Source of the DNA: Geobacter sp.
Lineage (GTDB): Bacteria > Desulfobacterota > Desulfuromonadia > Geobacterales > Geobacteraceae
Length of the DNA: 64,000 nucleotides
Direction: 5' to 3'
NCBI GenBank assembly: GCA_016177775.1
Contig: JACOUQ010000015.1
Location: 62,001-126,000 of the forward strand
The stretch's first letter is position 1; every line of letters starts with the position of its first letter. The translations under genes were made by a program, and so were the position numbers. Under the pieces are notes generated by a model. That model was given only the letters and a program-made list of their open reading frames with translations. It was not told the origin of the DNA and ran no database searches. Shown piece after piece: positions 34,121 to 52,254 of the stretch.

Positions 34121-37100
34121 ATGCAAACTGTTTCCGGGATATTAGGTTGGTTCAATGGGCTCAGCCTCCGGGCCAAACTCGCTGCCGGCTTCATCGGAGT
34201 GATCGCCGTGAGCCTGCTGGGAGCGGGCGTTTCGCTCTTGAGCCAGCAACGGATGCGGCTGGCGGTCGCAAAATTCGTAAATGTCTCCCATCCGATAGAC
34301 GAGCTCAGCCTGGACAGCAATGTCGCCATGCTGAAGGCAAGGCGTCACGAGAAGGATTTTTACCTGAAGGTGAACGAATTCGGGTTCCAGGAGGCGAGGT
34401 CGCGCTACACTGCCCTCCTGCGGATGGAGCTGGAGGAGATCCGGCGGAATATGGCGAAAATCCGCAGCCTGACCGCCGATCCGGACATCGCGCGTAAGAC
34501 CGAAGATATCGTGCGGGCTGTCGACCGGTACGAAGCCGGTTTCAGGCGGGTCGTCGATTTATACGGCGTTCTCGGCTTTGCGGACAAGGGTCTGGAGGGG
34601 GGCTTTCGCGCCAAGGCCCACGAGATCGAATCGATCCTCGAAGGAGCGGGGAGCGGTCCCCTTGTTGTCGATCTGCTGGGGATCCGCCGGCGGGAAAAGG
34701 ATTTCCTGCTGCGGGGGCTCGACAGGGATGCGGATGCCTTAGGCCGCGAGGTGGCGAAGTTCAAGGCGGATGTAACCGGGTCAGGGCTTGCGCCGGCGCA
34801 AAAGCAGAAACTGGCGCGGTTGATTACGGATTACCAGGCATTGTTCGACCGCTATGTACAAGTCAAGGCCGAGATCAGTCAGGAAAAGGCGCAGTACATA
34901 GGCGCGGTCGATTCCGTGGAGCCGGGGCTGGAGTTGCTCCGCGTCAGGGCCGGGCTGTCTGAGACCGCGGCCGCCAAAACCTTGCGGAGCATGGCCGCGG
35001 CAACTGGCTGGACGATAGTTGCGGCCGGCCTGTTCGCGTTTCTTCTCGGCCTGACTGTGGCCTACTTCATTTCGCGCGGCATTGTAAGGTCGGTAAAGGG
35101 GTGCATGGAGTTTGCCGGAAGGATTGCCAAGGGTGATCTGGATTCCCGCATGGAGGTTGGCGGCGGCAGCGAGTTCGCACGGCTCTCCGAGGCATTGAAC
35201 GGCATGGCGGATGCACTGCACGCAGCGCAGGTGGTCCAGGAAAAGCGGACGATCGAGTTGCAGGAGGTGAACGAAGCGCTGCAGAAAGAGGTGGCAGACC
35301 GCAGGATCGCCGAGGAATCCTTGCACCAGCGCCAGCGCGCCATCGAATCCAGCAGCAACGGGATAATCATCACAGATGCAACCCGGCCCGGCAACCCGAT
35401 CACATACGCCAATCCAGCTTTTGAGCGGATCACCGGCTATTCGGTCAAAGAGGTGCTGGGGCGCAATGCCAGGTTCCTGCTTGGGGACAACCATGATCAG
35501 GCGGCTTTGGGAGATATCCATGCCGCCATTCAGGAAGGGCGCGAAGGGCATGCGGAGCTCCGCAACTACCGCAAGAACGGAAGTCTTTTCTGGAACGAGC
35601 TTTCCATTTCCCCGGTGCGCGATGAGGCCGGAAGGGTAACCAATTTCGTCGGAATAATTAACGACATAACCGACCGCAAGGAGTTCGAGGAGCAGCTTGC
35701 ATACCAGGCCAACCATGACGTGCTTACCAGCCTTCCCAACCGAAGCCTGCTCATTGACCGGCTCAACCAGGCGATCTCCTATGCCGGCCGCTATCGCAAG
35801 CGCACTGCGGTATTGTTCGTCGATCTTGACCATTTCAAGGTCATTAATGACAGCCTTGGCCACGAAATCGGCGACCTGCTTCTGAAAGAGGCTGCAAAAC
35901 GGCTGGCGAAATGCGTGCGCTCCATTGACACGGTGGCTCGCCATGGCGGCGATGAATTTGTCATAGTTCTTCCTGACCTGACAACGAGCGATGATGCAGC
36001 AAAGGTGGCCAATAAAATAGAGGAAGCCGTGAGCCGGCCGTTCAGAATAGATGAGCATGATCTGGTGGTCTCGTGCAGCACAGGCATCAGTATCTTCCCG
36101 AAGGACGGGGAGAATGCGCAGGATTTGCTGAAAAATGCTGATGTGGCAATGTACAGGGCAAAGGAGCAGGGGCGCAACAATTTCAGGTTCTATACCAGCG
36201 AACTGAATGACAAGGTGATTGTGCGCATGACCATGGAAAAGCACCTCCGCCTGGCCCTGGAAAGGAACGAGTTCATCCTTCATTACCAGCCGCAGGTGGA
36301 TCTCGATTCCGGCATGATCATCGGGATGGAGTCCCTGATACGCTGGCAGAGCCCGGAGCTGGGGTTGGTGCCGCCGGCCAGATTCATTCCCCTTGCCGAA
36401 GAGACAGGGCTGATAGTGTCTATCAGCGAATGGGTGCTGCAGGCCGCATGCGCGCAAAACCGCGCCTGGCAGGATGCAGGGCTCACGCCGGTGGTAATGG
36501 CGGTAAACATCTCCCCTCGCCAGTTCCGGCAGGAGGGTCTGGCCGATACGGTGGACCGGATACTGGACGAGGCCGGTCTGGAGCCGAAATATCTGGAAAT
36601 GGAAATCATCGAGAGCATGGTCATGCATGATGTCGAGGCTGCCGCGGTCATATTGAATAAATTGAAGGGGCTGGGAATCCTGCTGACGATGGACGATTTC
36701 GGCACCGGCTATTCCAGCCTGAGCTACCTGAACCGCTTCCCCTTCGATAAGTTGAAGATTGACCAGTCCTTTGTCCGAAACATTACGAGCGATCCGGACA
36801 GTGCGGCCATAGCCAGGGCGATAATCGTCATGGGGCACAGCATGAATCTCCGGGTGATTGCCGAAGGGGTGGAAACGGAAGCGCAGCTGGGGTATCTCCG
36901 CGCCAACGGCTGCGACGACATGCAGGGATTTTATTTCGGGCGTCCGGTGCCGGCAGAGGAGTTCGAGCGCCTGCTGCGGGAGCAGAAAAGGTTGCAATTC
37001 CCGGCGGGGATCACGTATTCTCCGGAGAGGACGCTTCTCCTGGTGGATGACGAGCCGAGCGTCACCGGCGCATTGGCAAGGCTGCTGCAGGACGAGGGGT

Positions 37101-37441
37101 ATAATATTCTCATTGCCGATAGTGCCCATCGGGGATTCGATCTCCTTGCCGTGAACCGGGTCGGCGTCATTGTCAGCGACGTCCGGATGCCGGGAATGAG
37201 CGGCATCGAATTCCTGACGCGTGTCAGGGTGCTCTATCCCGATGCGGTACGCATTACGCTGACCGGTTATTCCGATATGGAGGCCGTCACTGCCGCCATC
37301 AACCGCGGTGCTGTCTACAAGTTCCTGGCCAAGCCGTGGGACAATGCGCAACTGCTGAGTATAGTCAGGGATGCGTTCAGGCATTATGAAGCGAGCATGG
37401 AAAGGGTCGAACGGGGTGGCAATGTCAGGGCCGCTTCCTGA
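34121..37441 (+). CDS. Membrane GGDEF/EAL protein with helical periplasmic sensor, HAMP, LOV-like PAS and C-terminal receiver
   Basis: 1,106 residues. TM1 (~20-40) and TM2 (~296-316) enclose a ~255-residue helical sensor with two EKDF motifs (RRHEKDF at 74-80, RRREKDF at 189-195), suggesting a bimodular HBM-like bundle. Then come HAMP (~317-370), PAS (~400-520), GGDEF (~525-690; intact GGDEF at 609-613, inhibitory site RSID at 600-603), EAL (~705-950; the EAL triplet reads ESL at 737-739, while DDFGTGYSS and the rest are intact) and a receiver (~970-1090; Asp976/977, Asp1020, Lys1071 all present). The PAS has the LOV string GRNxRFL but Ala450 where photoreceptors have Cys. A receiver at the C-terminus is unusual. 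Probably makes or degrades a cyclic dinucleotide. Likely cotranscribed with the PstS-like gene. Confidence 0.9.
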   Translation: MQTVSGILGWFNGLSLRAKLAAGFIGVIAVSLLGAGVSLLSQQRMRLAVAKFVNVSHPIDELSLDSNVAMLKARRHEKDFYLKVNEFGFQEARSRYTALLRMELEEIRRNMAKIRSLTADPDIARKTEDIVRAVDRYEAGFRRVVDLYGVLGFADKGLEGGFRAKAHEIESILEGAGSGPLVVDLLGIRRREKDFLLRGLDRDADALGREVAKFKADVTGSGLAPAQKQKLARLITDYQALFDRYVQVKAEISQEKAQYIGAVDSVEPGLELLRVRAGLSETAAAKTLRSMAAATGWTIVAAGLFAFLLGLTVAYFISRGIVRSVKGCMEFAGRIAKGDLDSRMEVGGGSEFARLSEALNGMADALHAAQVVQEKRTIELQEVNEALQKEVADRRIAEESLHQRQRAIESSSNGIIITDATRPGNPITYANPAFERITGYSVKEVLGRNARFLLGDNHDQAALGDIHAAIQEGREGHAELRNYRKNGSLFWNELSISPVRDEAGRVTNFVGIINDITDRKEFEEQLAYQANHDVLTSLPNRSLLIDRLNQAISYAGRYRKRTAVLFVDLDHFKVINDSLGHEIGDLLLKEAAKRLAKCVRSIDTVARHGGDEFVIVLPDLTTSDDAAKVANKIEEAVSRPFRIDEHDLVVSCSTGISIFPKDGENAQDLLKNADVAMYRAKEQGRNNFRFYTSELNDKVIVRMTMEKHLRLALERNEFILHYQPQVDLDSGMIIGMESLIRWQSPELGLVPPARFIPLAEETGLIVSISEWVLQAACAQNRAWQDAGLTPVVMAVNISPRQFRQEGLADTVDRILDEAGLEPKYLEMEIIESMVMHDVEAAAVILNKLKGLGILLTMDDFGTGYSSLSYLNRFPFDKLKIDQSFVRNITSDPDSAAIARAIIVMGHSMNLRVIAEGVETEAQLGYLRANGCDDMQGFYFGRPVPAEEFERLLREQKRLQFPAGITYSPERTLLLVDDEPSVTGALARLLQDEGYNILIADSAHRGFDLLAVNRVGVIVSDVRMPGMSGIEFLTRVRVLYPDAVRITLTGYSDMEAVTAAINRGAVYKFLAKPWDNAQLLSIVRDAFRHYEASMERVERGGNVRAAS

Positions 37442-40334: not shown

Positions 40335-40351
40335 TTGGTAAAATCTTTGCA
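40335..40351 (+). promoter_or_regulatory. Candidate sigma-54 promoter before pilV
   Basis: TTGGTAAAATCTTTGCA has the -24 TTGG and -12 TTTGCA with the required 10 nt between GG and GC; three defined positions of YTGGCACGRNNNTTGCW deviate. A TATAAT (40352-40357) overlaps its end, with TTGAAT 19 bp before it as a poor sigma-70 partner. The pilV ATG is 43 bp downstream. Sigma-54 control is known for pilus genes through PilR in related bacteria. Confidence 0.5.
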
Positions 40352-40393: not shown

Positions 40394-40852
40394 ATGTTAA
40401 ATCAACGTGGCATCGCGCTGATAGAAATCATTGTTGCGATGTTTATCACCCTTGTGGGATTTCTGGGGATGATGACCGTTCAGATAATGTCTGTTTCCGG
40501 GACAACGGTTGCCAGGAATGAGACGGCAGCGATGAATCTTGCGCAGGCGCTTGTGGAGAAGCTTGCCAGAACCTCGTATAGTAATGCTGCATTTAATACT
40601 GGTCTGCATTCCGCGGCTGCGGGAGATTCGGATGTGACAGGGGGTCTCGTCAGGGCCAATCCGATATTTTCGAATAATTCCACAGCCTCCACCGGTGTGC
40701 CAAACGTCCAGTTTACCCGGACCTGGACTGTCACTGACCAGACGGTAAATACTCAAATTTTGAAAAAGGTAGTTGTTGAAGTCAGGTGGGGAGAAGGAAC
40801 AATGGGACAAAAGACAAGAACATTGACCTTCTGGAAGAGCCAATTTTATTGA
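40394..40852 (+). CDS. pilV: Type IV pilus minor pilin PilV
   Basis: 152 residues. Leader MLNQRG cut before IALIEIIVAMFITLVGFLGMMTVQIMSV (Glu at +5). PilV-family character is seen in the longer N-terminal helix and the ARNETAAMNLAQALVEKLART segment. Minor pilins of this class prime pilus assembly and sit at the pilus tip with PilY1. Strong ribosome-binding site AAGGAG. Gene order pilV-pilW-pilX-pilY1 is conserved. Base use in pilV and pilW is visibly richer in A and T than in the neighbours. Confidence 0.88.
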   Translation: MLNQRGIALIEIIVAMFITLVGFLGMMTVQIMSVSGTTVARNETAAMNLAQALVEKLARTSYSNAAFNTGLHSAAAGDSDVTGGLVRANPIFSNNSTASTGVPNVQFTRTWTVTDQTVNTQILKKVVVEVRWGEGTMGQKTRTLTFWKSQFY

Positions 40853-40863
40853 GGAGAACATAG

Positions 40864-41967
40864 ATGTGTTCTTATGAAGATAACAGAGGATTCACCCTGG
40901 TAGAAATACTAGTGGCTATTGCAATACTGCCGATTATTCTGGCTGGTGTTTATGCAGGTTATCTCAGCATGGAAACTACCCGCAACGTGCAGGGGCAAGT
41001 TACGGAAATGCAAAGAAACGCCCGCTCCGCCATGCATATGATACTCCAGGACCTGAGGCAGGGGGGGTATGGCATGACGGAGATGCCGGATATTCCCATA
41101 TGGCAATACTATAAGGAGTCTGATGGTTCAACGGAGAGTACAATTCCGGTGTATGCCGTAAAAAGCCCCATGAACGGTATTTTTCTTAATGGCCAGACGC
41201 AACTCACCAATACAGACAGCGTCGAATTGTATTTTAATACCTACGCTTCGCAGAATACCGCTCCGCTCAAAGTGGATGGGACCAAAACAAACCAGATTGA
41301 AGCCTCTCTTACATTTATGAACGATGTTGGGGGGCTGAATGTCGGGGATATCATAGTTGCCTACGATTATACGACCACTCCGCCGCAAGCACTGGTATAT
41401 GAAGTAACATCAGTGGACCCTCCGCCGGGGACGGTAAAAATCGGCCATAATGCGGGCCAATCCGGGACAGTCAACGCACCCGGCGGCTTTATCCCTTTCA
41501 CCCAAAACTGGACTGGGAATACCAATATTTTAAACCTCAATCTCAGTTCAGGAAGCTGGATCGGCTATTTTGTCGATAGCAATAATAACCTGGTTCGTTC
41601 GGTAAAAAAGCGGGTCGGAACAGATTGGGTAACCGAGCAGAAAAAGATCGCAAGTGGTATTGAAGACCTCCAGATTGAATATACTTTCAAAGATGGCCCA
41701 ATCCGTAACTTGCCGATTGTGCAAAGCTGGACGAGCGGCGGCGCTGTGCCCACGGAAGACTCAACGTATGGCCCTACGAAAATCAGGAGCATTTCAGTCG
41801 GAATTATTGCGCGCACAACGAAATCCGATCCCAAATATACCGACACAACGGTATACAAGCTCAAGGATGGCGTTGCCCACAGCGGCGGCGGTTATCGTAG
41901 GATGGTCCTCACCAGCGATGTGGCGTTGCGAAATCTTATGGCAAAAGATAATAACCAGGCGCCTTAA
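40864..41967 (+). CDS. pilW: Type IV pilus assembly protein PilW
   Basis: 367 residues. Leader MCSYEDNRG, then FTLVEILVAIAILPIILAGVYAGYLSM. A PilW-type domain follows with MQRNARSAMHMILQDLRQGGYGM and a long beta-rich C-terminal part ending near RRMVLTSDVALRN. Minor pilin needed for initiating pilus assembly. Begins 11 nt after pilV with GAGGAGAAC in front. Codon use is AT-rich compared with pilY1, which may reflect relaxed selection or separate acquisition. Confidence 0.87.
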   Translation: MCSYEDNRGFTLVEILVAIAILPIILAGVYAGYLSMETTRNVQGQVTEMQRNARSAMHMILQDLRQGGYGMTEMPDIPIWQYYKESDGSTESTIPVYAVKSPMNGIFLNGQTQLTNTDSVELYFNTYASQNTAPLKVDGTKTNQIEASLTFMNDVGGLNVGDIIVAYDYTTTPPQALVYEVTSVDPPPGTVKIGHNAGQSGTVNAPGGFIPFTQNWTGNTNILNLNLSSGSWIGYFVDSNNNLVRSVKKRVGTDWVTEQKKIASGIEDLQIEYTFKDGPIRNLPIVQSWTSGGAVPTEDSTYGPTKIRSISVGIIARTTKSDPKYTDTTVYKLKDGVAHSGGGYRRMVLTSDVALRNLMAKDNNQAP

Positions 41968-41991: not shown

Positions 41992-42642
41992 ATGTTATTG
42001 CCAAAAACACTGAAAAACGAAGACGGTTTGGCCCTCATAGTGTCATTGGTATTTCTGCTGATCACCCTGGTCATTGCCGGGGTAGTGAGCCAAACGACGA
42101 TCTCCGAAATTATTTTTTCCCGCAAGGAGGCAAGGGAGAAAATGGTCCTTGCCATGGCCGACGCCGGGTCCAAGGATGCCATCAGTTGGCTGAACTCCCA
42201 AGCTGCGCCGCCTGAAGGGGGTCTGGCCAAGATCAATGGTAAAAGTGCTTTTTACAAGGACGACAACACCATCTCGGGTACCACCACCTATTCCTGGTGG
42301 AGCGGCGTCACTCCCCCGACCGTCACTGGTTGGAGCTCCTACAAATTTCTGGATGCGCCGAACACAACTACCGACGTCTACCGGTACTACCCCTCCACCG
42401 CTGCTGGCTGGACAAATTACGTGGTGGAGGGCAATGCTCGTTACAGGTACTATATCGAGCATCTGCCGAGCGATTACTCGGATTCGACCGGGACCGCCAC
42501 CGCCCAGAGTATCAAGGTCGGAAACAAGTATGATGCCACCGGAGGAAACGCATACCGGATGTACCGGATCACGTCGGTCGGTTCGACATCGGATGACAGC
42601 ATAAAGAGATGCATCGAAATGAATTACGCCGTCAAGTACTGA
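41992..42642 (+). CDS. pilX: Type IV pilus assembly protein PilX
   Basis: 216 residues with the PilX N-terminal pattern KNEDGLALIVSLVFLLITLVIAGVVSQTTISEIIFSRKEAREKMVLAMADAG. Position +5 after the glycine is not Glu (LALIV), as in other PilX proteins, so processing by PilD is less certain. The C-terminal half is rich in Thr, Ser and Tyr, with paired Trp residues. Follows pilW by 24 nt and precedes pilY1 by 13 nt. Confidence 0.85.
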   Translation: MLLPKTLKNEDGLALIVSLVFLLITLVIAGVVSQTTISEIIFSRKEAREKMVLAMADAGSKDAISWLNSQAAPPEGGLAKINGKSAFYKDDNTISGTTTYSWWSGVTPPTVTGWSSYKFLDAPNTTTDVYRYYPSTAAGWTNYVVEGNARYRYYIEHLPSDYSDSTGTATAQSIKVGNKYDATGGNAYRMYRITSVGSTSDDSIKRCIEMNYAVKY

Positions 42643-42655
42643 CAGGAGCATTGCC

Positions 42656-45600
42656 ATGAGCCGCACTCTAAGGAACATTTCAACCGCCTATCTGACCCTC
42701 ATCGCATTCCTGGTCATCTTCGTATGCTACGCCCTGGCCTTGACCATTCCGTCCACGCCGCTCTTCGTCTCCACGGTGCAGCAGCCGAACGTCCTGCTGC
42801 TCCTGGACGTCTCTCCCACCATGCAGTGCACCGAGTGGGATTCCACCTACAATCCCGAGACAAGCAGCGCCACCTTCAGCAAGTTCGACCCGAACTACGA
42901 CTGGAACGTGCTGGTCAAGGTGGGGAGCAAACTCATCATGGTCTACCACGACGATGCCGGCGCGGTGAAGGCAGACAAGGAAAACATTGGTGGCCTGGAC
43001 ATCACGATTGACTCCAAAACCGTCACATTCCCCGACCCAGCAACCGGCAAGGCCCGCGCCTATTTCCCCGTCGCCGTCGGCAGCATTCCGGCCGGGGAAT
43101 ACCCCTGTTATATCTATGACGGGAAGTATATGAACTGGGCATTTGATAACGGCAAAAACATTTCAAGCCATACCAATACCCGGATCGGGTCCATCATCGA
43201 CCCGTCATCCACCAACAGCCTCAATCAGTTCGTAAAGAACAACCCAACGTTCCGGTTCGGCCTGATGGCGACCGGGCCCAACGGCACCAACAGCGGCGTC
43301 CTCAAGAATGCGTGCGGCGATCTGACCGCCAGCAACGTGGATATAGTCCTGGGCAAGGACGATCCGGACACTACGTACACGAACACCGAATATCTTCTTG
43401 ATCCCGACAACCCCAATTCCTTTTACAAGAAGAACCGCGTCTATATCCTCGGATCCGGCTCCTCCGACACCGTCAACGACTGCCAGATCGGCGAGGCCCT
43501 CACCGAAACCTGGCAGGTATTCAAGGGGGGGACATCGGAATACGACAACACCAAGACTTATACCTCGCCGATTTCCGCCTCCTGTCAGGCGAACTTCGTG
43601 GTTCTCTTCTCCAGCGGCCGCCCCCATTTGGACAACGTCTATGACAAGTATTCCATCACGACCAGTTCCAGCGACGATTTCGCCACTACAGCCCCGATCT
43701 CATCGGGGGTCACTTACGCGGCGACCAACTTCGACACCCGCGCTCCGGCCATCGCCGCGTACATGAAACTCCACAATCCCTCCGCCATCGCAAACAGCAA
43801 GTCAATTCTTACCTATACTGTGGGAGTGGGGTACAACTACCCTTCGGCCACGGATTCCACCAGACTCTTGCAGAAAATCGCTGCCGATGGGGGCGGGGTG
43901 TTCAGCACGGTGAACAGTACATCAGGTCTGGGCGCGGCCCTGAACGCCGTCGGGGCCGGGGTGGTCCAGGCAATTTCATCCGCCAGCTCTGTTGCGGTCA
44001 ATACCGCCTTCCTCCAGACCAACACCCAGCTCTTCACAGCCCAATTCCTCCCTGGCGTATGGACAGGGGACGTTATCGCCAAGGATATCGATCCGACGAA
44101 CGGTAATATCAGCGTATCCAATGCCTGGAGCGCATCGGTGCTTCTCGCCAGTCGGACCGAGGCCTCCCGTGATATCTTCACCACGTATAGCACCTCGTCC
44201 AACCGGTACACCTACACATCCTTCCACACTGACGCGGCGGGGACCCTTCAGTCCTGGCTCGGGACAGTCGATTCGACCGACACCGAAAAGGTCATCAAGA
44301 CCGTGCGCGGCACCTATAGCGGTGACGGTATCTTTGCCAACGGTTACCGGGAACTCCCTAAAGAGGGCGGAAACATCAAGAAGCTCGGCGATGTTGTCAG
44401 TTCCTCGCCGGTCTATGTCGGATCGCCACCTTTCTATTACAGCTATGCCGGTTACCGTAACTTCCAGGTGAGCAACCAGGGGCGCAAGGGAATGGTCTAT
44501 ATCGGCGGCAACGACGGGATGCTGCACGCCTTTCATGCCGGCACCGCTGAGGACACCACCACTTTCGGCACGGAGGGAGGAAAGAAGGGTGGGGAAGTCT
44601 GGGCCTATATCCCCAACAACCTGATGAGGGGGCCGAACCCTGTTCTTCCCGTGAATGGCGACGCGATCAACAATACCCCTCGCCGCATCAGGAGCCTGGC
44701 CCGCCCCGACAACTATGCCGCGTTCTCCAACCCTGTGCAGTACGGCACCGCCTCCCTGCCGCACCAGATGATGGTGAACGGTACCGCCACCACGGGTGAC
44801 GCGGTGGTGGGGTTCCAGAACTATTCAACACCCAAGTGGGGGACAGTGGTCATCGGCACCGAGCGCGAGGGCGGCAAGGGAATATTCGCCCTGAACGTAA
44901 CCGACCCGCGCAAGCCGAACAGTAGCGCCAACGCCCTGGGGCAGACCGGGGTGACCCCGATGTGGGAGTATTCCGACTATCACGATCAGGCCATGGGGTA
45001 TACCTATTCCTCGGTGGCCATAGCCAGGCTCCGTTACTCCGCCCCCCTGGACGGCGGCTTTGTCCCGCTGGATACATGGGTGGCCATATTCGGCAACGGC
45101 TACAATTCCAAGGAAGGGAAGGCCTACCTGATGGTGGTGGACATCAAGACAGGCAAGCTGATCAAGAAGATGCCCACAGACAACACGCTGGACAACGGTC
45201 TGTCGTCGCCGGCGGTAATCGTCGACTCCAGCGGATACGTCAAGTATGCCTATGCCGGAGACCTCAAGGGGAGGCTCTACCGGTTTGATTTCAAGTCATC
45301 CGATGCCGATGCGCCGTCCGGGAGTGGCTTGGCAAAATGGAACAACTACGTGGGCTCGTGGACCTCTACGCTGCTGTTTAACCAGATACAGCCGATTACG
45401 TCCGCACCTGACGTTGCCTATGACGGGAGCAAGTACCTAGTGCTGTTCGGCACAGGGCAGTACCTGGACAGCGCCGACATCGGCCCCACGGACATTCAGA
45501 CCTTCTACTGCGTTTTCGATACCGGCTCCTACAGCGGCCTTACCCGTTCCAATCTTGCCCCCCGGACTCTTAACGAGGATTCGATCGGCACCAAGAGCAT

Positions 45601-46096
45601 ACGGTACGTTACGGGCTCAGCCCTGGGGACGAACGATAAGGGGTGGTATCTGGACCTTAAGGACCCCGATCTTGCGGCCACCGGAGAGCGGGTCGTCACC
45701 GACCCGGTGGCCTACTCCGGGAACGTGATCTTCACGTCGTTCATCCCGACGACCACTGCCTGTGAGTACGGTGGTTATAGCTGGCTGAACGTGGTGGACT
45801 TCAAGACCGGGCTCCAGCCGGCGAAGACCGACCTGGACATAACCGGCGAGGGGACGATTGATTCGTCCGACACGATCACGGTGGGCGGCACGGTCTACAA
45901 TCCTTCCAGCCTCAAGTTCGTCGGCGCCGGGATGGCATCGAGCCCGACGGTGCTCAGTGCAAGCGGAGGGATCGCCTACAAGTATACGACCCTCAGTTCC
46001 GGCGTGGTCGTCAAGACAACGGAAACCGGCTCTGCGGCGGCTGGTAGCAATTTTATCCGGGCGTGGCGGGAAATTTTCCCGTATCAGGGAATATAA
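42656..46096 (+). CDS. pilY1: PilY1, pilus tip adhesin / assembly factor
   Basis: 1,146 residues. Signal-like N-terminal helix (YLTLIAFLVIFVCYALALT), then a VWA-like region starting NVLLLLDVSPTMQ, whose metal-site motif reads DVSPT rather than DxSxS. The C-terminal half is the PilY1 beta-propeller: RKGMVYIGGNDGMLHAFHAGT, VWAYIPNNLM, GKGIFALNVTDPRKPN and LVLFGTGQYL, with a Ca-binding-type loop possible near DLDITGEGTIDSSDT. PilY1 sits at the pilus tip with minor pilins, aids extension, and in some species senses surfaces. It is the last gene before the GEMM riboswitch. Confidence 0.9.
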   Translation: MSRTLRNISTAYLTLIAFLVIFVCYALALTIPSTPLFVSTVQQPNVLLLLDVSPTMQCTEWDSTYNPETSSATFSKFDPNYDWNVLVKVGSKLIMVYHDDAGAVKADKENIGGLDITIDSKTVTFPDPATGKARAYFPVAVGSIPAGEYPCYIYDGKYMNWAFDNGKNISSHTNTRIGSIIDPSSTNSLNQFVKNNPTFRFGLMATGPNGTNSGVLKNACGDLTASNVDIVLGKDDPDTTYTNTEYLLDPDNPNSFYKKNRVYILGSGSSDTVNDCQIGEALTETWQVFKGGTSEYDNTKTYTSPISASCQANFVVLFSSGRPHLDNVYDKYSITTSSSDDFATTAPISSGVTYAATNFDTRAPAIAAYMKLHNPSAIANSKSILTYTVGVGYNYPSATDSTRLLQKIAADGGGVFSTVNSTSGLGAALNAVGAGVVQAISSASSVAVNTAFLQTNTQLFTAQFLPGVWTGDVIAKDIDPTNGNISVSNAWSASVLLASRTEASRDIFTTYSTSSNRYTYTSFHTDAAGTLQSWLGTVDSTDTEKVIKTVRGTYSGDGIFANGYRELPKEGGNIKKLGDVVSSSPVYVGSPPFYYSYAGYRNFQVSNQGRKGMVYIGGNDGMLHAFHAGTAEDTTTFGTEGGKKGGEVWAYIPNNLMRGPNPVLPVNGDAINNTPRRIRSLARPDNYAAFSNPVQYGTASLPHQMMVNGTATTGDAVVGFQNYSTPKWGTVVIGTEREGGKGIFALNVTDPRKPNSSANALGQTGVTPMWEYSDYHDQAMGYTYSSVAIARLRYSAPLDGGFVPLDTWVAIFGNGYNSKEGKAYLMVVDIKTGKLIKKMPTDNTLDNGLSSPAVIVDSSGYVKYAYAGDLKGRLYRFDFKSSDADAPSGSGLAKWNNYVGSWTSTLLFNQIQPITSAPDVAYDGSKYLVLFGTGQYLDSADIGPTDIQTFYCVFDTGSYSGLTRSNLAPRTLNEDSIGTKSIRYVTGSALGTNDKGWYLDLKDPDLAATGERVVTDPVAYSGNVIFTSFIPTTTACEYGGYSWLNVVDFKTGLQPAKTDLDITGEGTIDSSDTITVGGTVYNPSSLKFVGAGMASSPTVLSASGGIAYKYTTLSSGVVVKTTETGSAAAGSNFIRAWREIFPYQGI

Positions 46097-46171
46097 CCAG
46101 TGCACCAAAGATCATTGAGTTGTACCGATAGTTGTGATATACAATCTGTCAGTTCATAGCAGTTGTTTAAC

Positions 46172-46249
46172 CGATAACGACAATACTCAACCACCCGCGA
46201 GGGTGGGGCGGAAAGCCCACAGGGTCTCTTGAAGACAGCCGGGTTGCCG
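46172..46249 (+). promoter_or_regulatory. GEMM-I riboswitch aptamer, A20 variant (predicted 3',3'-cGAMP sensing)
   Basis: P1 CGATAAC (46172-46178) / GTTGCCG (46243-46249). P2 CCACCC-GCGA-GGGTGG (46191-46206) with a GNRA loop. Conserved GGGGCGGAAAGCC (46205-46217). P3 GTCT/AGAC in CACAGGGTCTCTTGAAGAC, then AGCCGGG. Aligned to the Vibrio Vc2 aptamer, A18, A47 and C92 are kept (46183, 46212, 46239), but position 20, which is G in c-di-GMP sensors, is A (46185). A20 is the hallmark of GEMM-Ib aptamers that prefer cyclic AMP-GMP, known from Geobacter. It lies between pilY1 and xre-pilMNOPQ. Confidence 0.88.
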
Positions 46250-46295
46250 AATTATCAACATGATGATTGATGATCGGTCCCGGCTGTTTTGTTTT
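46235..46295 (+). terminator. Expression platform: terminator overlapping the aptamer 3' half
   Basis: ACAGCCGGG (46235-46243) pairs perfectly with CCCGGCTGT (46279-46287). Inward it extends through CCGAATTATCAA / TTGATGATCGG, and TTTTGTTTTT follows. The 5' arm contains the aptamer segment AGCCGGG next to C92 and the first base of P1. Ligand-stabilised folding should therefore prevent termination, giving an ON switch. Confidence 0.85.
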
Positions 46296-46342
46296 TAATT
46301 CCATTCAAAAGCATCTAATTGTTTTCAATTTAAAGAAATTAC

Positions 46343-46370
46343 TTGACAATCATTTCAATTGAATTAAACT
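46343..46370 (+). promoter_or_regulatory. Promoter with embedded palindromic operator before the xre gene
   Basis: TTGACA (46343-46348), 16-bp spacer, TAAACT (46365-46370). The spacer holds the perfect palindrome TTCAATTGAA (46354-46363). TTTCAATT also occurs exactly 30 bp earlier (46323-46330 versus 46353-46360), about three helical turns. This fits an operator for the small XRE protein encoded just downstream. If active, it gives a second entry to the pilM operon that bypasses the riboswitch. Confidence 0.55.
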
Positions 46371-46402
46371 CCCTGCAAAATCGCTTAAAAGCAGGGAATG
46401 CC

Positions 46403-46603
46403 ATGAAATATAAAAACAATGTGAAACGGCTCCGTGAGGCGAAGCTGGTCAGCAAATCGGAGCTCGCCAGGCTGGCCGGCGTGTCGCCGGCCACAATCGA
46501 CCGGATCGAGCGCGGCGAGGAGTGCCGCATGGAGACGAAGCGAAAGATCATCCTGGCGCTCGGCTATTCGCTGGAAGAAAAAGACAAGGTATTTCAGGAC
46601 TAA
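46403..46603 (+). CDS. Small XRE-family helix-turn-helix regulator
   Basis: 66 residues (MKYKNNVKRLREAKLVSKSELARLAGVSPATIDRIERGEECRMETKRKIILALGYSLEEKDKVF), essentially a single HTH_3 domain with the recognition helix SPATIDRIERG. No effector domain. It is the first gene after the riboswitch and lies 17 nt before pilM. The palindrome in its promoter suggests autoregulation. The ATG at 46403 follows GCAGGGA. Targets unknown; control of pilMNOPQ or of itself is the simplest guess. Confidence 0.85.
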   Translation: MKYKNNVKRLREAKLVSKSELARLAGVSPATIDRIERGEECRMETKRKIILALGYSLEEKDKVFQD

Positions 46604-46620
46604 TACCATAGGACTTGGCG

Positions 46621-47673
46621 ATGTTATTCAAGAAATCGAAAGACATACTCGGCATCGACATCGGTTCCAGCGCCATCAAACTGGTGCAGCTAAGGGAGTC
46701 CAAGGGGGGGTATCAGCTCGTCAATATCGGCCTTGTCCCGCTTCCTCCCGAGGCCATTGTCGACAACAGCCTCATGGACACATCATCCATTGTCGAGGCG
46801 CTCAAATCGCTGGTGCAAGGTGTCGGCACAAAGATCAAGTCCGCCGCTGCCGCGATATCCGGCAGTTCGGTCATTATTCGAAAGATCAGCCTGCCGGCCA
46901 TGACCGAGGAGGAGCTGGAGGACCAGATACAGTGGGAGGCGGAGCAGTATATCCCCTTTGACATCAACGACGTGAACCTTGATTTTCAGATTCTCGATAC
47001 GTCGCTTACCGATGCCAGCAAGATGAACGTGCTCCTGGTGGCTAGCAAGAAGGAGATCATCAACGATTACGTGACCGTTTTTGCCGAGGCGGATCTGAAG
47101 CTGGACGTCATTGATGTGGATGCCTTTGCTGTCCAATGCGCATACGAGGTCAACTATGATGTGGTGCCGGACGAGGTCGTGGCACTGGTCAACATCGGGG
47201 CGAACGTCGCGAACCTGAACATCATTAAGGACGGCCTCTCGCTCTTTACCCGCGATATCCAGATGGGGGGGAACCTTTACAACGAGGAGATCCAGCGGCA
47301 GTTCGGCATCAAGGGGGAAGAGGCCGAGCAGATCAAACTTCACGGAGGGGGAGAAGACCCCCTGAGGTTGCAGGAGATTGTCGGACGGATCAATGACTCC
47401 ATTGCCATGGAAATCAGGCGCTCCATCGATTTCTACATATCCACGGCAGCCGAGGAAAAGGTTCACAAGCTTTTCCTGAGCGGTGGGGCCGCGAAGATCG
47501 CCGGCCTGCTCGACTCCGTTGCGCAGCGGCTCAATGTCCCGGTGGCCCTGCTGGATCCTTTGTTGCGAGTTCGTTACAACGAGAAAGAATTCGACCCTGA
47601 ATACATACAAGAAATCGGGCCTTTTATGGCGGTTGCGACTGGGCTGGCGACAAGGAGGCTCGGGGATAAATGA
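46621..47673 (+). CDS. pilM: Type IV pilus inner-membrane platform ATPase-like protein PilM
   Basis: 350 residues with an actin-like fold: ILGIDIGSSAIKLVQL (phosphate 1), EQYIPFDINDVNLDFQIL, VVALVNIGANVANLNIIKDG (phosphate 2) and KLFLSGGAAKIAGLLDSVAQRL (adenosine). PilM is cytoplasmic and binds the N-terminal tail of PilN; here that tail starts MIRINLLPVRAAKKKE, the expected binding peptide. The ATG at 46621 gives MLFKKSKDILGID. pilN overlaps its stop (ATGA). Confidence 0.95.
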   Translation: MLFKKSKDILGIDIGSSAIKLVQLRESKGGYQLVNIGLVPLPPEAIVDNSLMDTSSIVEALKSLVQGVGTKIKSAAAAISGSSVIIRKISLPAMTEEELEDQIQWEAEQYIPFDINDVNLDFQILDTSLTDASKMNVLLVASKKEIINDYVTVFAEADLKLDVIDVDAFAVQCAYEVNYDVVPDEVVALVNIGANVANLNIIKDGLSLFTRDIQMGGNLYNEEIQRQFGIKGEEAEQIKLHGGGEDPLRLQEIVGRINDSIAMEIRRSIDFYISTAAEEKVHKLFLSGGAAKIAGLLDSVAQRLNVPVALLDPLLRVRYNEKEFDPEYIQEIGPFMAVATGLATRRLGDK

Positions 47674-48218
47674 TCCGTATCAACCTGTTGCCCGTCAGGG
47701 CCGCGAAAAAAAAGGAAACCGCAAAACAGCAGCTTTCCATTCTCGGTCTGTCGATCGTCGGTGTTTTGCTGATTTTCGCTGTGCTTTATTTAACGATGCT
47801 CGCCAAGATCAGTACGGCAAAGGATGAAATTTCACGTGCCGACAGTGAGCTTCAGCAGCTCAAGACAAAGATCGGCGAGATCAATAACATCAAGAAGCTG
47901 AAGGACGACGTTCAGAAAAAACTTGACGTTCTCAACCGGCTGCGCAAGGGCAAAACCGGTCCGGCCCTAAGACTTGCGGCGCTTAGCGATGCAGTGCCGG
48001 AAAAACTATGGTTGACAAGCTATTCCGAAGGCGAGGATTCCGTAAAGCTTGGCGGCATAGCATTTTCCGAAGAGCTGATCGCAACCTTCATGCGTAATCT
48101 GGAGGCTTCGGAGCATTATGCCGGTGTCGAGCTGATAGTTTCCGAACAGGTGGAAATCGCCGGCGTGAAGGGGAAGAAATTCGAAATCACATGCAAGTTG
48201 GAACCTCCAAAGAAGTAA
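47670..48218 (+). CDS. pilN: Type IV pilus alignment protein PilN
   Basis: 182 residues. The conserved MIRINLLPVR cytoplasmic tail binds PilM. One membrane segment (LSIVGVLLIFAVLYLTML) is followed by a coiled coil (EISRADSELQQLKTKIGEINNIKKLKDDVQKKLDVLNRL) and a ferredoxin-like periplasmic domain. Forms the alignment complex with PilO. Translationally coupled to pilM. Confidence 0.94.
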   Translation: MIRINLLPVRAAKKKETAKQQLSILGLSIVGVLLIFAVLYLTMLAKISTAKDEISRADSELQQLKTKIGEINNIKKLKDDVQKKLDVLNRLRKGKTGPALRLAALSDAVPEKLWLTSYSEGEDSVKLGGIAFSEELIATFMRNLEASEHYAGVELIVSEQVEIAGVKGKKFEITCKLEPPKK

Positions 48219-48293
48219 GCCGACCAGCCGCCGAAGAAAAAAATCGACAAACGACAGGATGAAGAACACTATCCGCGCTAACCGGTGATAATT

Positions 48294-48893
48294 ATGGACC
48301 CTCGCATAGAAAAAACCCTCAAACTGCCGACAAAACAGAAAATCGCCCTGCTGATCCTGATCATTCTGGGTATTGGTGCTGCCCTCTATTTTTCCCTGTA
48401 TATGCCGAAGCTGAATGAGTACAAGGAACTGCAGGCCTCTTTGGAGAAGAAGCAGAAAGAGGTGGACGAAAACCGGAAGATCGCCGACAATCTCCCGAAA
48501 TTCAAGCAGGAGTTCGAAAACCTCAATCTTGAGCTCCAGAAGGCACTCACCGAGCTTCCAAACCAGAAGGAGATCCCTTCGCTTTTGACGAGCATTACGG
48601 GCGCCGGGAAAAGTGCGGGTCTGGATTTTCTCATTTTCCGGCCAAAACCCGAGGAGCCCAAGGATTTTTATGCCGCTGTTCCGGTGGATATAACCGTTGC
48701 GGGTTCTTTCCATAACACGGCGGCATTTTTCAAGGCTGTAGCTGAATTGCCACGCATCGTCAACATCAACAATGTCGTATTTTCGGACCCTAAAAATGTC
48801 GGCGGTCGCATGATGCTGAAGGTGACCTGCCTGTCCACCACATTCCGATTCGTTGAGAAGAAAGAGACCAAGGATGAAAAGAAGGGGAAATAA
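48294..48893 (+). CDS. pilO: Type IV pilus alignment protein PilO
   Basis: 199 residues. One membrane helix (KIALLILIILGIGAALYFSLY), coiled coil (LNEYKELQASLEKKQKEVDENRKIADNLPKFKQEFENL) and a periplasmic domain with LPNQKEIPSLLTSITGAGKSAGL and DFYAAVPVDITVAGSFHNTAAFFKAVAELPRIVNI, typical of PilO. Partner of PilN and PilP. The ATG at 48294 is chosen over a GTG nine bases upstream; neither has a strong ribosome-binding site. Confidence 0.93.
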   Translation: MDPRIEKTLKLPTKQKIALLILIILGIGAALYFSLYMPKLNEYKELQASLEKKQKEVDENRKIADNLPKFKQEFENLNLELQKALTELPNQKEIPSLLTSITGAGKSAGLDFLIFRPKPEEPKDFYAAVPVDITVAGSFHNTAAFFKAVAELPRIVNINNVVFSDPKNVGGRMMLKVTCLSTTFRFVEKKETKDEKKGK

Positions 48894-49404
48894 ACCCATA
48901 ATGCATGCCGTGTTTTTGCTGGCCGCAATGCTTCTTTTTGCCGGCGGCTGCAAGAAAAAGGAGGAAGCGCCACCTCCGCCACCTCCGTCCAAGCCGCATA
49001 AGCCTGTTCAGAAAGCGGTTACTTCGGCAGCAGCGTTAGTGGAGCCTTCTCTGGACTTTACCAATAGAAAAGACCCGTTCCGCCCCTTTGTCGTCGTGGC
49101 TCCGAAGCCCACGGCGCCGACAGGAAGGCGGCCGGTTCGGGAAGCTTTGCTCCCCATTCAGAATTATGATGTTTCCCAGTTCAAGGTGATAGGCATAGTG
49201 GCCGGTCTCAAGGAAAACAGTGCCATGATCGTCGATCCGACCGGGAAAGGGTATGTCGTCCGAAAGGGGATGCTGATCGGCAGGAATGAGGGCCGCATTA
49301 CCCGGATTACCCCTTCCGGAGTCGAGGTCTATGAGCAGTTTCGTGACGACAGCGGCAAGATAGTAAAAAGGACCATAAAACTCACTCTCCCAAGGAAACA
49401 GTAA
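48874..49404 (+). CDS. pilP: Type IV pilus lipoprotein PilP
   Basis: About 176 residues. Basic start MKRRGNKPIM, hydrophobic signal and lipobox-like LLFAGGC, then a proline-rich linker (EEAPPPPPPSKPHKP) and the PilP beta domain (YDVSQFKVIGIVAGLKENSAMIVDPTGKGYVVRKGMLIGRNEGRITRI). PilP links the PilN/PilO complex to PilQ. The start at 48874 overlaps pilO by 20 nt; ATG 48901 is an alternative with a shorter N-terminus. Confidence 0.9.
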   Translation: MKRRGNKPIMHAVFLLAAMLLFAGGCKKKEEAPPPPPPSKPHKPVQKAVTSAAALVEPSLDFTNRKDPFRPFVVVAPKPTAPTGRRPVREALLPIQNYDVSQFKVIGIVAGLKENSAMIVDPTGKGYVVRKGMLIGRNEGRITRITPSGVEVYEQFRDDSGKIVKRTIKLTLPRKQ

Positions 49405-49416
49405 GGAGATTACCCG

Positions 49417-52254
49417 ATGAGAGCAGGTATTCAATACGGTAAATTTACCGCACTTTTTATGCTGATCGTGACTTTGGGCGCTGCTGCCGGGTGTGCGCAC
49501 CGGCCACTCGATGAAAGCCGCCTGGATGCGCGTGGCTCGCTCGGGAGCCTTCAGGATATCAGAACCGCAAGCAATGAAGAGTACGATCGCGTGGAAATCA
49601 CGGCAGACCGGGCGCTTACGTACACATTTTACAAATTGCCTGATCCTCCCGTTGCCGTATTGGATATCTCCGATGTGACGCCGGGGTCGGTAGTCTCGTC
49701 GATAGATGTGAACTCGGGAAATCTTGGGAAAATCGCTGTTAACCGGCATGATCTTGCCGGCGGGGTTCTGACACGTGTTGAGATCGGCCTGAAAAGGGAC
49801 CTCGACGTGTCTGTGACTGTAGATCCCGAAAACAAGGCAAAACTCTTTGTAACGTTGCAAGCTCCAACTACCCAAGAGGCAAAGACGCCTGCTCCCACTA
49901 TTCCTGTTGAACCTGCTGTCGTGCAAAAGGCAGAAGAAAGTCCGTCGGCTGTCAAGCAGGAAGCGGCTCCCTCAGCTTCACAGCTTCAGTCAGAGCCTGC
50001 AAAGGAGACGGTTGAAACGAAGCCGGAACCTCCAATGGCGAAGGAAAATGAAAGCAGGCAGACCGAAGCGCCTGCTGCATCTGCTGCTGAGCCAAAAGAA
50101 TTCGTACAGGTCGCCCAACTCGAAACCAACCAACCTGCGGCTACGGAAAAGGGCGAAACGAAGGGCGCCGCTTCCGATCAGCCTCAGGTAAAGGTGTTGA
50201 CTTCGCTTAAAACGGTTCAAGACGGTGTGGAAATTGCGGTCACTGGTCCGGTCGAAAATTACAAGGTTTTCACGCTCAAGGAGCCTGCACGGTTGGTGAT
50301 AGATCTGTTCGGCGTAAAGAGCGGAGTTGTAGGACGCAAGATAGGTGTCGACGCCTTTGGTGTCGCCTCGGCCCGGATCGGCGAGTACCAGGACAAGACC
50401 AGGATCGTATTCGATGCCGCACAGACGCTCCTCCCCGCATACGAGGTCGTACGCACGGATGCGGGAATAAAGCTGGCGATGACGCCGCCGTCCGCGGAGG
50501 CCGTCCAGAAAGCGGCGAAGCCTGTTGCGCCGGTAGCGGAGGAAAAGGCTCTGGTTCAGCCTGTTAGGGCCAAGGCGGGAGTGGTTGAATCTCTCGATTT
50601 CAAATCCCAGGATGATATGTCCCGGATAGTTGTGAAGGTGACCGGCGACTGCCGGACAGATGAGCCTGCCAAGATTCCCGGCGGAATTGCGTTTACCGTT
50701 AGAAACTGCGCGCTTCCCAAAAAGCTCCAGCGGAGTCTGGATACCAGCGCCTTTGCCGGGTCCGTGCTCAGGGTGACGCCGTATCAGGTCAGGACCAAGA
50801 AAGGCGCTGATACTAAGGTCGTTGTAAAACTGCGTCAGGACACCGAATACAGTCTGAGTCGCGAGGGTGACGCGATAGTTCTCGCGTTGAAAAATCCGCC
50901 ACGAGAAGAGACCCCGGCACTTATTTCCGAAGCTGTGAAGCCTGCCGAAGCTGCGCCAGTTACGAAAGCGGCTGTTGCGCAGGGCACTGCCAAAAACATG
51001 AATGCGGTTGAGGAAAAAGCTGGGCAGGATTCGCCTGCCCGTGCTAAGTCCGGTGAAAAGAAGACCTACACAGGGAGGCGGGTAACCCTCGAGTTTGTTG
51101 ATGCCGATATCCGGAAAATCTTCCAGCTCCTGGCTGAGGTGAGCAACCTGAACTTCCTGATTGGTGATGATGTTTCCGGGACAATCAGCATCAAGCTTGT
51201 GAACGTCCCGTGGGACCAGGCGCTGGACGTTATTCTGGAGGCCAAGAATCTCGGCATGCAGCGTGAAGGAAATATCGTCCAGATACGTCCCAAGGACAAG
51301 ATAAAGAGCCTTGCCGAAGAGGAAGTGGCTGCGAAGAAGGCCCGCGAACAGGCTATGGAACTGCGGACTGAGATCTTCGAGGTGAATTTTGCATCGATTG
51401 GTGATGTGGCCTCGCAATTTAATTCGCTGAAGAGTGAGCGAGGCACCATCACCCAGGATGCCCGTACCAACAAGGTTATCGTCAAGGATGTTCCCACAGC
51501 CATCGAGGATATGAAGTTTCTGCTGAAGACCCTGGACGTGCCGGAAAAACAGGTCATGATCGAAGCCAGGATCGTTGAGGCTACGTCTACTTTTACACGC
51601 GATCTCGGCGTTCAGTGGGGCATCCATTATAAGGACGGATCAGCGCAATTCTTTGGGATAAACAGCCTGGATGCCGGGTTAGGTGGTGTTGTCTCTTCAG
51701 CGCCAACATCTGGGACTTCGGGGCCGGGAGCGGCAGTTGGAATGTCTTTTGGAAAGCTCACGAGTAATGTCCAACTGGATCTGAAGTTGTCTGCAGCGGC
51801 AACAGCAGGGCTTATCAAGATAATCTCCACACCTAAAGTTGCAACGTTGAACAATAAGGCTGCGAAAATATCACAGGGCCAATCTATCCCTTATCAGACT
51901 ACATCAGCTGAAGGAACCAAGACCGAATTCGTCGAAGCGGCTCTCACTCTCGAAGTGACACCACACATAAGCTCAGACGGAAGCATTATCATGAAAATAA
52001 AAGCGTCAAATAACTCGCCAGGCACCGGTTCTCCACCTCCGATCAACAAAAAGGAGACAACAACCGAACTTCTGGTGAAGAGTGGAGAGACAACGGTTAT
52101 CGGTGGCATTTACGTTGATAGTGACACCGAAAATGATACGGGCGTGCCTTTCCTGCAGAACATTCCGCTATTGGGCTGGCTTTTTAAGTCCAATACCAAG
52201 ACAAAGACGAAAACAGAGCTGTTGATCTTCATAACACCACGACTCATGATTTAG
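49417..52254 (+). CDS. pilQ: Type IV pilus secretin PilQ
   Basis: 945 residues, long for PilQ. Lipobox GAAAGC near residue 25. An AMIN-like domain (~45-150) is followed by a ~110-residue Pro/Ala/Glu/Lys-rich linker, two further AMIN-type domains (~265-360 and ~390-495), a second linker, the STN domain (VTLEFVDADIRKIFQLLAEVSNLNFLIGDDVSGTISIKL), secretin_N (TEIFEVNFASIGDVASQFNSL) and the secretin barrel (VMIEARIVEATSTFTRDLGVQWG ... VPFLQNIPLLGWLFKS). AMIN domains bind peptidoglycan; three suggest firm wall anchoring. Forms the outer-membrane gate for pili. Confidence 0.94.
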   Translation: MRAGIQYGKFTALFMLIVTLGAAAGCAHRPLDESRLDARGSLGSLQDIRTASNEEYDRVEITADRALTYTFYKLPDPPVAVLDISDVTPGSVVSSIDVNSGNLGKIAVNRHDLAGGVLTRVEIGLKRDLDVSVTVDPENKAKLFVTLQAPTTQEAKTPAPTIPVEPAVVQKAEESPSAVKQEAAPSASQLQSEPAKETVETKPEPPMAKENESRQTEAPAASAAEPKEFVQVAQLETNQPAATEKGETKGAASDQPQVKVLTSLKTVQDGVEIAVTGPVENYKVFTLKEPARLVIDLFGVKSGVVGRKIGVDAFGVASARIGEYQDKTRIVFDAAQTLLPAYEVVRTDAGIKLAMTPPSAEAVQKAAKPVAPVAEEKALVQPVRAKAGVVESLDFKSQDDMSRIVVKVTGDCRTDEPAKIPGGIAFTVRNCALPKKLQRSLDTSAFAGSVLRVTPYQVRTKKGADTKVVVKLRQDTEYSLSREGDAIVLALKNPPREETPALISEAVKPAEAAPVTKAAVAQGTAKNMNAVEEKAGQDSPARAKSGEKKTYTGRRVTLEFVDADIRKIFQLLAEVSNLNFLIGDDVSGTISIKLVNVPWDQALDVILEAKNLGMQREGNIVQIRPKDKIKSLAEEEVAAKKAREQAMELRTEIFEVNFASIGDVASQFNSLKSERGTITQDARTNKVIVKDVPTAIEDMKFLLKTLDVPEKQVMIEARIVEATSTFTRDLGVQWGIHYKDGSAQFFGINSLDAGLGGVVSSAPTSGTSGPGAAVGMSFGKLTSNVQLDLKLSAAATAGLIKIISTPKVATLNNKAAKISQGQSIPYQTTSAEGTKTEFVEAALTLEVTPHISSDGSIIMKIKASNNSPGTGSPPPINKKETTTELLVKSGETTVIGGIYVDSDTENDTGVPFLQNIPLLGWLFKSNTKTKTKTELLIFITPRLMI

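Follow-up and report, generated by a model that had tools for sequence, protein, structure and literature searches.

The RNA encoded at 46173-46296 of the 64,000-nt stretch of Geobacter sp. DNA analysed here (hereafter the window) is likely a cGAMP-responsive ON switch that passes upstream transcription into xre-pilMNOPQ, above the output of a likely basal promoter at 46343-46370. The pilM cGAMP riboswitch itself is not new, being already described in the available text of two published studies (PMC9262584; PMC6456294). What appears to be new concerns the layout of the locus: a promoter after the switch would probably bypass it, and a sigma-54-like site accompanies the aptamer in most relatives that carry the riboswitch, though not in the window. 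The features of the window to which we refer are as follows.

40336-40351, + strand: sigma-54-like site TGGTAAAATCTTTGCA, 9/11 letters, 42 nt before the open reading frame at 40394
40394-40852, + strand: open reading frame with an N_methyl match below the cut-off (Pfam)
40864-41967, + strand: PilW (Pfam)
41992-42642, + strand: open reading frame of 216 aa, no Pfam match
42656-46096, + strand: pilY1 (PF05567, 3.5e-35)
46173-46256, + strand: GEMM-I aptamer with P1, P2 and P3 (RF01051 match; our own model R2)
46185, + strand: position 20, A, cGAMP-type (alignments, assumed Vc2 numbering)
46212, + strand: position 47, A, kept (RF01051 and RF03167 alignments, assumed numbering)
46247, + strand: position 92, C, kept; partner of G46277 in the predicted terminator fold (alignment and folding)
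46234-46296, + strand: predicted intrinsic terminator (folding; shuffles)
46343-46370, + strand: likely sigma-70-type promoter of xre-pilMNOPQ (consensus scan; TTGAC conservation)
46403-46603, + strand: xre, a 66-aa Cro/C1-type HTH protein (PF01381, 1.4e-9)
46621-52254, + strand: pilM-N-O-P-Q (PF11104, PF05137, PF04350, PF04351, PF00263), with pilM at 46621-47673 (ATG start taken), pilN at 47670-48218, pilO at 48285-48893, pilP at 48853-49404 and pilQ at 49417-52254 (Pfam)

The Pfam matches agree with the identities that the initial annotation had given to pilY1 and to xre-pilMNOPQ. From the open reading frame at 40394, three genes and then pilY1 follow one another closely to 46096. The pilY1 stop lies 78 nt before the RF01051 match, and a scan of 45900-46700 found no terminator-like site between this stop and the aptamer. 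A pilin or pilY1 query also matched upstream of xre or pilM in 11 of 12 relatives (all except L154), the matches being mostly weak and scattered. Further upstream in the window, 34121-37441 encodes a HAMP-PAS-GGDEF-EAL protein with a C-terminal receiver domain; genes for ribosomal L13 and S9 and for a semialdehyde dehydrogenase lie between it and the pilin genes.

A complete GEMM-I aptamer had been proposed between pilY1 and the pilM operon, and the covariance-model search of Rfam that had been suggested as a check bears this out. RF01051 (GEMM-I, or c-di-GMP-I) matched at 46175-46251 on the + strand by cmscan with 41.8 bits (E = 8.5e-5), above the gathering score of 35 bits that defines membership, although this score is modest and as such counts against our preferred reading. 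RF03167 (c-di-GMP-I-GGC) scored 46.3 bits with a better E-value than RF01051, but this identity was rejected because its own gathering score is 59; the RF03167 consensus has G after GACGC, where the window has A.

Pocket residues were assigned through the Rfam alignment using Vc2 numbering, which we take to apply to the window as follows: A18 is 46183, position 20 is A46185, C21 is 46186, U22 is 46187, C44 is 46209, G45 and G46 are 46210 and 46211, A47 is 46212 and C92 is 46247. On this assumed numbering the alignment confirms the earlier reading that A18, A47 and C92 are kept and that position 20 is A46185, the letter of the GEMM-Ib (cGAMP) type. The Vc2 aptamer of Vibrio cholerae, which belongs to c-di-GMP-I, carries A18, A47, C92, G20 and the pairs G21-C46 and C22-G45. 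The window shares its fold and its A18, A47 and C92, whereas it has A20 for G20 and, in lower P2, C21-G46 (46186/46211) for G21-C46 and U22.G45 (46187/46210) for C22-G45. A20, C21-G46 and U22.G45 were found together in all 16 sequences compared.

Conservation among orthologues supports the fold. The window aptamer scored 105.6 bits with our covariance model R2, whose training set of 16 sequences includes it. Across 15 distinct sequences, 7 of 22 pairs showed double-sided changes (shuffled mean 2.9). The upper helix of P2 covaries, being paired in 100% of cases with both sides changed in four of its six pairs, and the two lower P2 pairs are invariant. P3 is 96.6% paired, which says little because 7 of its 10 pairs never vary. 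The sequence would also allow P1 to form between 46173-46177 and 46252-46256. At 46188 the window has C, where the other 35 rows of the family aptamer alignment have A, a point that also speaks against our preferred reading.

The aptamer is followed by a predicted intrinsic terminator that reuses its 3' strand. The 5' arm, placed at 46235-46243 by the initial annotation, was found at 46234-46243, pairing with 46279-46288 ahead of a T-tract at 46287-46296, and an inner stem joins 46246-46250 to 46274-46278, so that C92 (46247) is sequestered. The minimum free energy structure of 46165-46296 is the terminator fold (-53.0 kcal/mol), compared with -21.9 kcal/mol when the aptamer is enforced with P1 and -30.8 kcal/mol without P1. 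The terminator hairpin has a ΔG of -31.0 against a shuffled mean of -13.3, and when the downstream stretch was shuffled by mononucleotides 200 times, it never folded as low. With the RNA folded in steps of increasing length, P2 kept its upper helix and P3 most of its pairs as far as 46280, and by 46285 the terminator was dominant. In unconstrained folding at nine lengths the C21-G46 and U22.G45 pairs never formed, and P1 formed at one length only (46260), which likewise counts against our preferred reading. A simple terminator scan of 45900-46700, limited to loops of 3-8, reported none.

Since the terminator arm takes up the aptamer 3' strand, ligand binding and termination would be mutually exclusive, which predicts an ON switch: the bound aptamer would keep P1, P3 and C92 (46247) out of the terminator and let RNA polymerase pass 46296. 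Folding thus agrees with the design by which the terminator takes both the 3' strand and C92, and the earlier expectation that ligand should favour read-through holds as a model prediction, the same design recurring in 14 of 14 loci. The pilM GEMM-Ib riboswitch of G. metallireducens is described in a similar way: it turns transcription on with cGAMP, and its terminator ties up C75, which pairs with the ligand (PMC9262584, in the part available). As far as that text goes, the two are alike in standing before the pilM operon as ON switches, in a terminator that takes the stabilising strand and the ligand-pairing C, and in having a lower P2 with a G-U pair (U15-G38 there, which is 22-45 by our own mapping). 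The window aptamer differs in following pilY1 and in having no sigma-54-like site just before it, and its ligand is a predicted one.

To analyse the distribution of the riboswitch, 36 aptamers of the family were made into a covariance model (R1), which was run over 88 pilM loci, 45 from whole family genomes and 43 from named contigs, which are partly the same loci. The 45 are what remained of 48 family genomes once G035, with no match, and G043 and G045, with weak matches alone, were set aside. The riboswitch was found in 14 of these 45 loci with 65-76 bits, and all 14 have A20 and the same pocket letters; the four named contigs that matched appear to hold four of these same loci. In each of the 14, a downstream arm takes 9-15 pairs from the aptamer 3' strand. 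This arm was more stable than all 200 mononucleotide shuffles in 13 loci and than 199 in the last (L115), where the T-run is badly placed, too far away. L106, with a 12.6-bit remnant that has lost P2, was counted as without a riboswitch. The same decayed pilM riboswitch is seen in L256 (~1070-1240, G002:C33; 1067-1125 in L106), where a short stretch replaces P2, whereas P3, terminator-like sequence and an upstream sigma-54-like TGGTAAAGAAATTGCA are kept. On the PilM tree, 4 changes of the riboswitch label are needed (shuffled mean 12.1). This fits an old element lost several times, the tree itself giving no direction and placing the PilM of the window on a long branch (0.62).

By tblastn, xre precedes pilM in 44 of the 45 loci, with 73-85% identity in relatives with or without the riboswitch. 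The exception is L124 (G001:C60), the sole riboswitch-bearing locus of the 14 without detectable xre; TTGAC is kept there after the terminator. In the window, a sigma-70-type site (TTGACA-N16-TAAACT, 10 of 12 consensus letters, + strand) lies downstream of the terminator at 46343-46370. Its -10, TAAACT, is a weak match, and although it is the sole such site in 45900-46700, shuffles give 0.8, so that alone it is no better than chance. We take it as a likely promoter because TTGAC is conserved, not because of the consensus match: with xre starts in relatives placed by homology, all 44 xre-pilM loci of the family, 31 of them without a riboswitch above the cut, have TTGAC 58-72 nt ahead of xre, while mononucleotide shuffles have TTGAC anywhere in the same 130 nt in a mean of 5.5 loci (maximum 12). 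A 10-bp perfect palindrome, TTCAATTGAA, lies at 46354-46363 between the -35 and -10; from its sequence and place it is a possible XRE operator for autoregulation.

Transcription that starts at the promoter-like motif is beyond the reach of the switch, because the motif begins 46 nt past the T-tract. Because xre is present in 44 of 45 loci, the riboswitch in 14 of 45 and TTGAC in 44 of 44 (past the terminator in those loci that have one), the part played by the riboswitch is probably limited to additional transcription arriving from upstream, on top of a basal level. The ON switch proposed earlier for xre-pilMNOPQ stands as a predicted design. To say that a cyclic dinucleotide sets the level of the pilus platform is overstated with a promoter-like 46343-46370 after the terminator and a riboswitch in just 14 of 45 loci. 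Because xre-pilMNOPQ has its own likely promoter, cGAMP would add to an existing level of the platform rather than turn on its expression from nothing.

Expression data from a relative bear on this point. In G. sulfurreducens, deletion of gacA, the gene of the cGAMP synthase, lowered a transcriptional regulator and pilMNOP genes 2-3 fold, and loss of GacA lowered omcST 2-3 fold, pgcA 10 fold and omcAHG and GSU0181-0183 16 fold, according to the available portion of that study (PMC6456294). With a bypass promoter one would expect pilMNOP to fall as little as this beside the 10-fold drop of pgcA and the 16-fold drop of omcAHG; omcST showed the same 2-3 fold decrease, so that a small effect does not single out pilM. 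The G. sulfurreducens system resembles that of the window in its riboswitch-controlled regulator and pilMNOP genes and in a GacA-like protein in the genome; the difference is that the response was measured there (2-3 fold), whereas that of the window locus is predicted. We regard it as unlikely that the operon depends mainly or wholly on the riboswitch, with nearly all xre-pilMNOPQ transcription arriving from upstream through the terminator and the downstream promoter motif weak or repressed, for example by XRE. The terminator is strong at -31.0, the -10 TAAACT is weak, the palindrome between the hexamers could be an operator, and the omcST response means that a small effect need not imply bypass; against such control stand TTGAC in 44 of 44 loci, including the 31 without a riboswitch above the cut, and the fall of just 2-3 fold in pilMNOP.

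Sites before the aptamer were scored against 11 letters that we take to be the sigma-54 consensus. Of 13 loci scanned (the window included, L097 not), 11 have a sigma-54-like site, matching at least 8 of these 11 letters, at a distance of 44-101 nt from the aptamer; all 11 sites have 9 or 10 letters, and dinucleotide shuffles gave a mean of 0.54 (maximum 3). The two loci without a site are L099 (7 of 11 letters) and the window, where no site of at least 8 letters was found within 46000-46175. For L097, at a contig end, the upstream sequence was supplied by L255 (exact 141-nt overlap, related gene upstream) and has no such site. Among relatives with the pilM riboswitch, the site is thus present in 11 of 13, with one borderline (L099) and one without (L097/L255). 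In pilM loci without the riboswitch it was found in 7 of 31, L106 among them, near chance (shuffled mean 4.6, maximum 10).

Control aptamers came from 134 aligned matches, minus 6 with less than 110 nt upstream and 6 duplicates; 59 loci of the set were hand-picked among the matches listed, and the G20 rows were drawn from the highest-scoring matches and from the window's own genome. With at least 8 of 11 letters required within 130 nt upstream of the aptamer, a site was seen in 3 of 67 first-in-array A20 aptamers (shuffled mean 2.4), or 3 of 66 others once L215, the pilM riboswitch of G032, is set apart, and in 0 of 10 A20 aptamers later in an array (shuffled mean 0.2). The figures for G20 aptamers were 1 of 26 first-in-array (shuffled 0.7) and 0 of 19 later (shuffled 0.8). 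A sigma-54 site as a general feature of GEMM-I RNAs was rejected on these counts. As controls gave 3 of 66 against 11 of 13 in the relatives, the site is associated with the pilM riboswitch and not with A20 aptamers at large. The four control sites all match at least 9 letters, for which the shuffled figures are 0.5 and 0.1; a small number of such RNAs may therefore have real sigma-54 sites.

RpoN (PF04552) was found in 46 of 48 family genomes and not in the assembly that contains the window (G000), nor in G039, which is 84% complete. Loss of sigma-54 in G000 was rejected: 22 sigma-54 activator matches are kept (E 1.7e-46 or better) and the assembly is 85% complete, which makes an assembly gap likelier, and probably the explanation of the absence. 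Counting both strands, the window has 8 sites with 9 of 11 letters. The nearest of these upstream is 40336-40351, a candidate distal promoter of the minor-pilin/pilY1 genes.

As the window has no sigma-54-like site before the aptamer and the aptamer lies 78 nt past pilY1, the switch may gate read-through from the minor-pilin/pilY1 genes. The passing polymerase would come from these genes, perhaps from the site at 40336, unless a weak promoter within 46097-46172 supplies it; its source in most relatives with the riboswitch would be the sigma-54-like promoter directly before the aptamer. Rather tentatively, we see the pilM riboswitch as an add-on gate between transcription units. In most relatives that carry it, a constitutive xre promoter may be overlaid by a two-input AND gate, in which a sigma-54-driven supplement of the pilus platform also requires cGAMP, and in this lineage, with the sigma-54 site gone, it may couple minor-pilin/pilY1 to pilMNOPQ. 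The literature, as far as it was available, was found to mention neither a sigma-54 site upstream of the pilM riboswitch nor a promoter downstream of it; Kellenberger 2015 and Nelson 2015 may do so.

The genome also encodes a putative source of the signal. A search of G000 gave 17 GGDEF matches besides 34121-37441, two of them in one frame and one GacA-like. The latter is a receiver-GGDEF protein of 478 aa (L138, 604-2040) with the letters GHLIGS ... YGGDEY (GH..GS, GGDEY), whose Ser we take to be position 348 in PleD numbering. Its best PDB match is 6d9m (E 2.4e-28), an endolysin fused to a response receiver sensor diguanylate cyclase. In the available text of PMC6456294, the GGDEF domain of G. 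metallireducens GacA is fused to T4 lysozyme, a construct that is presumably the structure in 6d9m, and Ser for Asp at position 348, with GGDE[F/Y], is given as the mark of Hypr enzymes. Judged by these letters, which it has, the L138 product would be a GacA-like, Hypr-type GGDEF protein and a putative source of cGAMP.

Ten GEMM-I aptamers in G000 scored above the cut-off, four with A20 (the window, L005, L008 and L010) and six with G20. The aptamer at L008 1501-1577 (G000:C13) is much like that of pilM, with a terminator-like stretch after it by eye and no long reading frame that stood out directly downstream; L005 1501-1578 (G000:C19) has a mixed signature, with A20 and a G21-C46 pair of the c-di-GMP type. 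That 6 of the 10 have G20 counts against our preferred reading. Nevertheless, a response in the cell mainly to c-di-GMP, or to both dinucleotides, seems quite improbable. The Rfam family is named c-di-GMP-I, the genome has the GGDEF-EAL protein of 34121-37441 and 17 further GGDEF matches, and aptamers of the cGAMP type can bind c-di-GMP too (PMC9262584, in part); but A20, C21-G46 and U22.G45 recur in 16 of 16 sequences, a gene for a Hypr-type cyclase is apparently present, and A here is associated with better binding of cGAMP among the aptamers tested in the available part of PMC9481103. It is very improbable that the aptamer is decayed and merely the terminator of the pilY1 gene cluster, since, even with a decayed copy in a relative (L106/L256) and a window without the sigma-54-like site of most riboswitch-bearing relatives, A18, A47 and C92 are kept, the score exceeds the gathering score and P1, P2 and P3 can pair.

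Read as a cGAMP ON switch above a basal promoter, the locus would bring a divergent genus with its own GacA-like enzyme into a characterised kind of cGAMP riboswitch. The conserved promoter after the switch offers a possible reason for the mere 2-3 fold response of pilMNOP to cGAMP loss. The link of the sigma-54-like site with the pilM riboswitch, which other A20 GEMM-I RNAs do not share, suggests this leader as a meeting point of sigma-54 control and cGAMP signalling.
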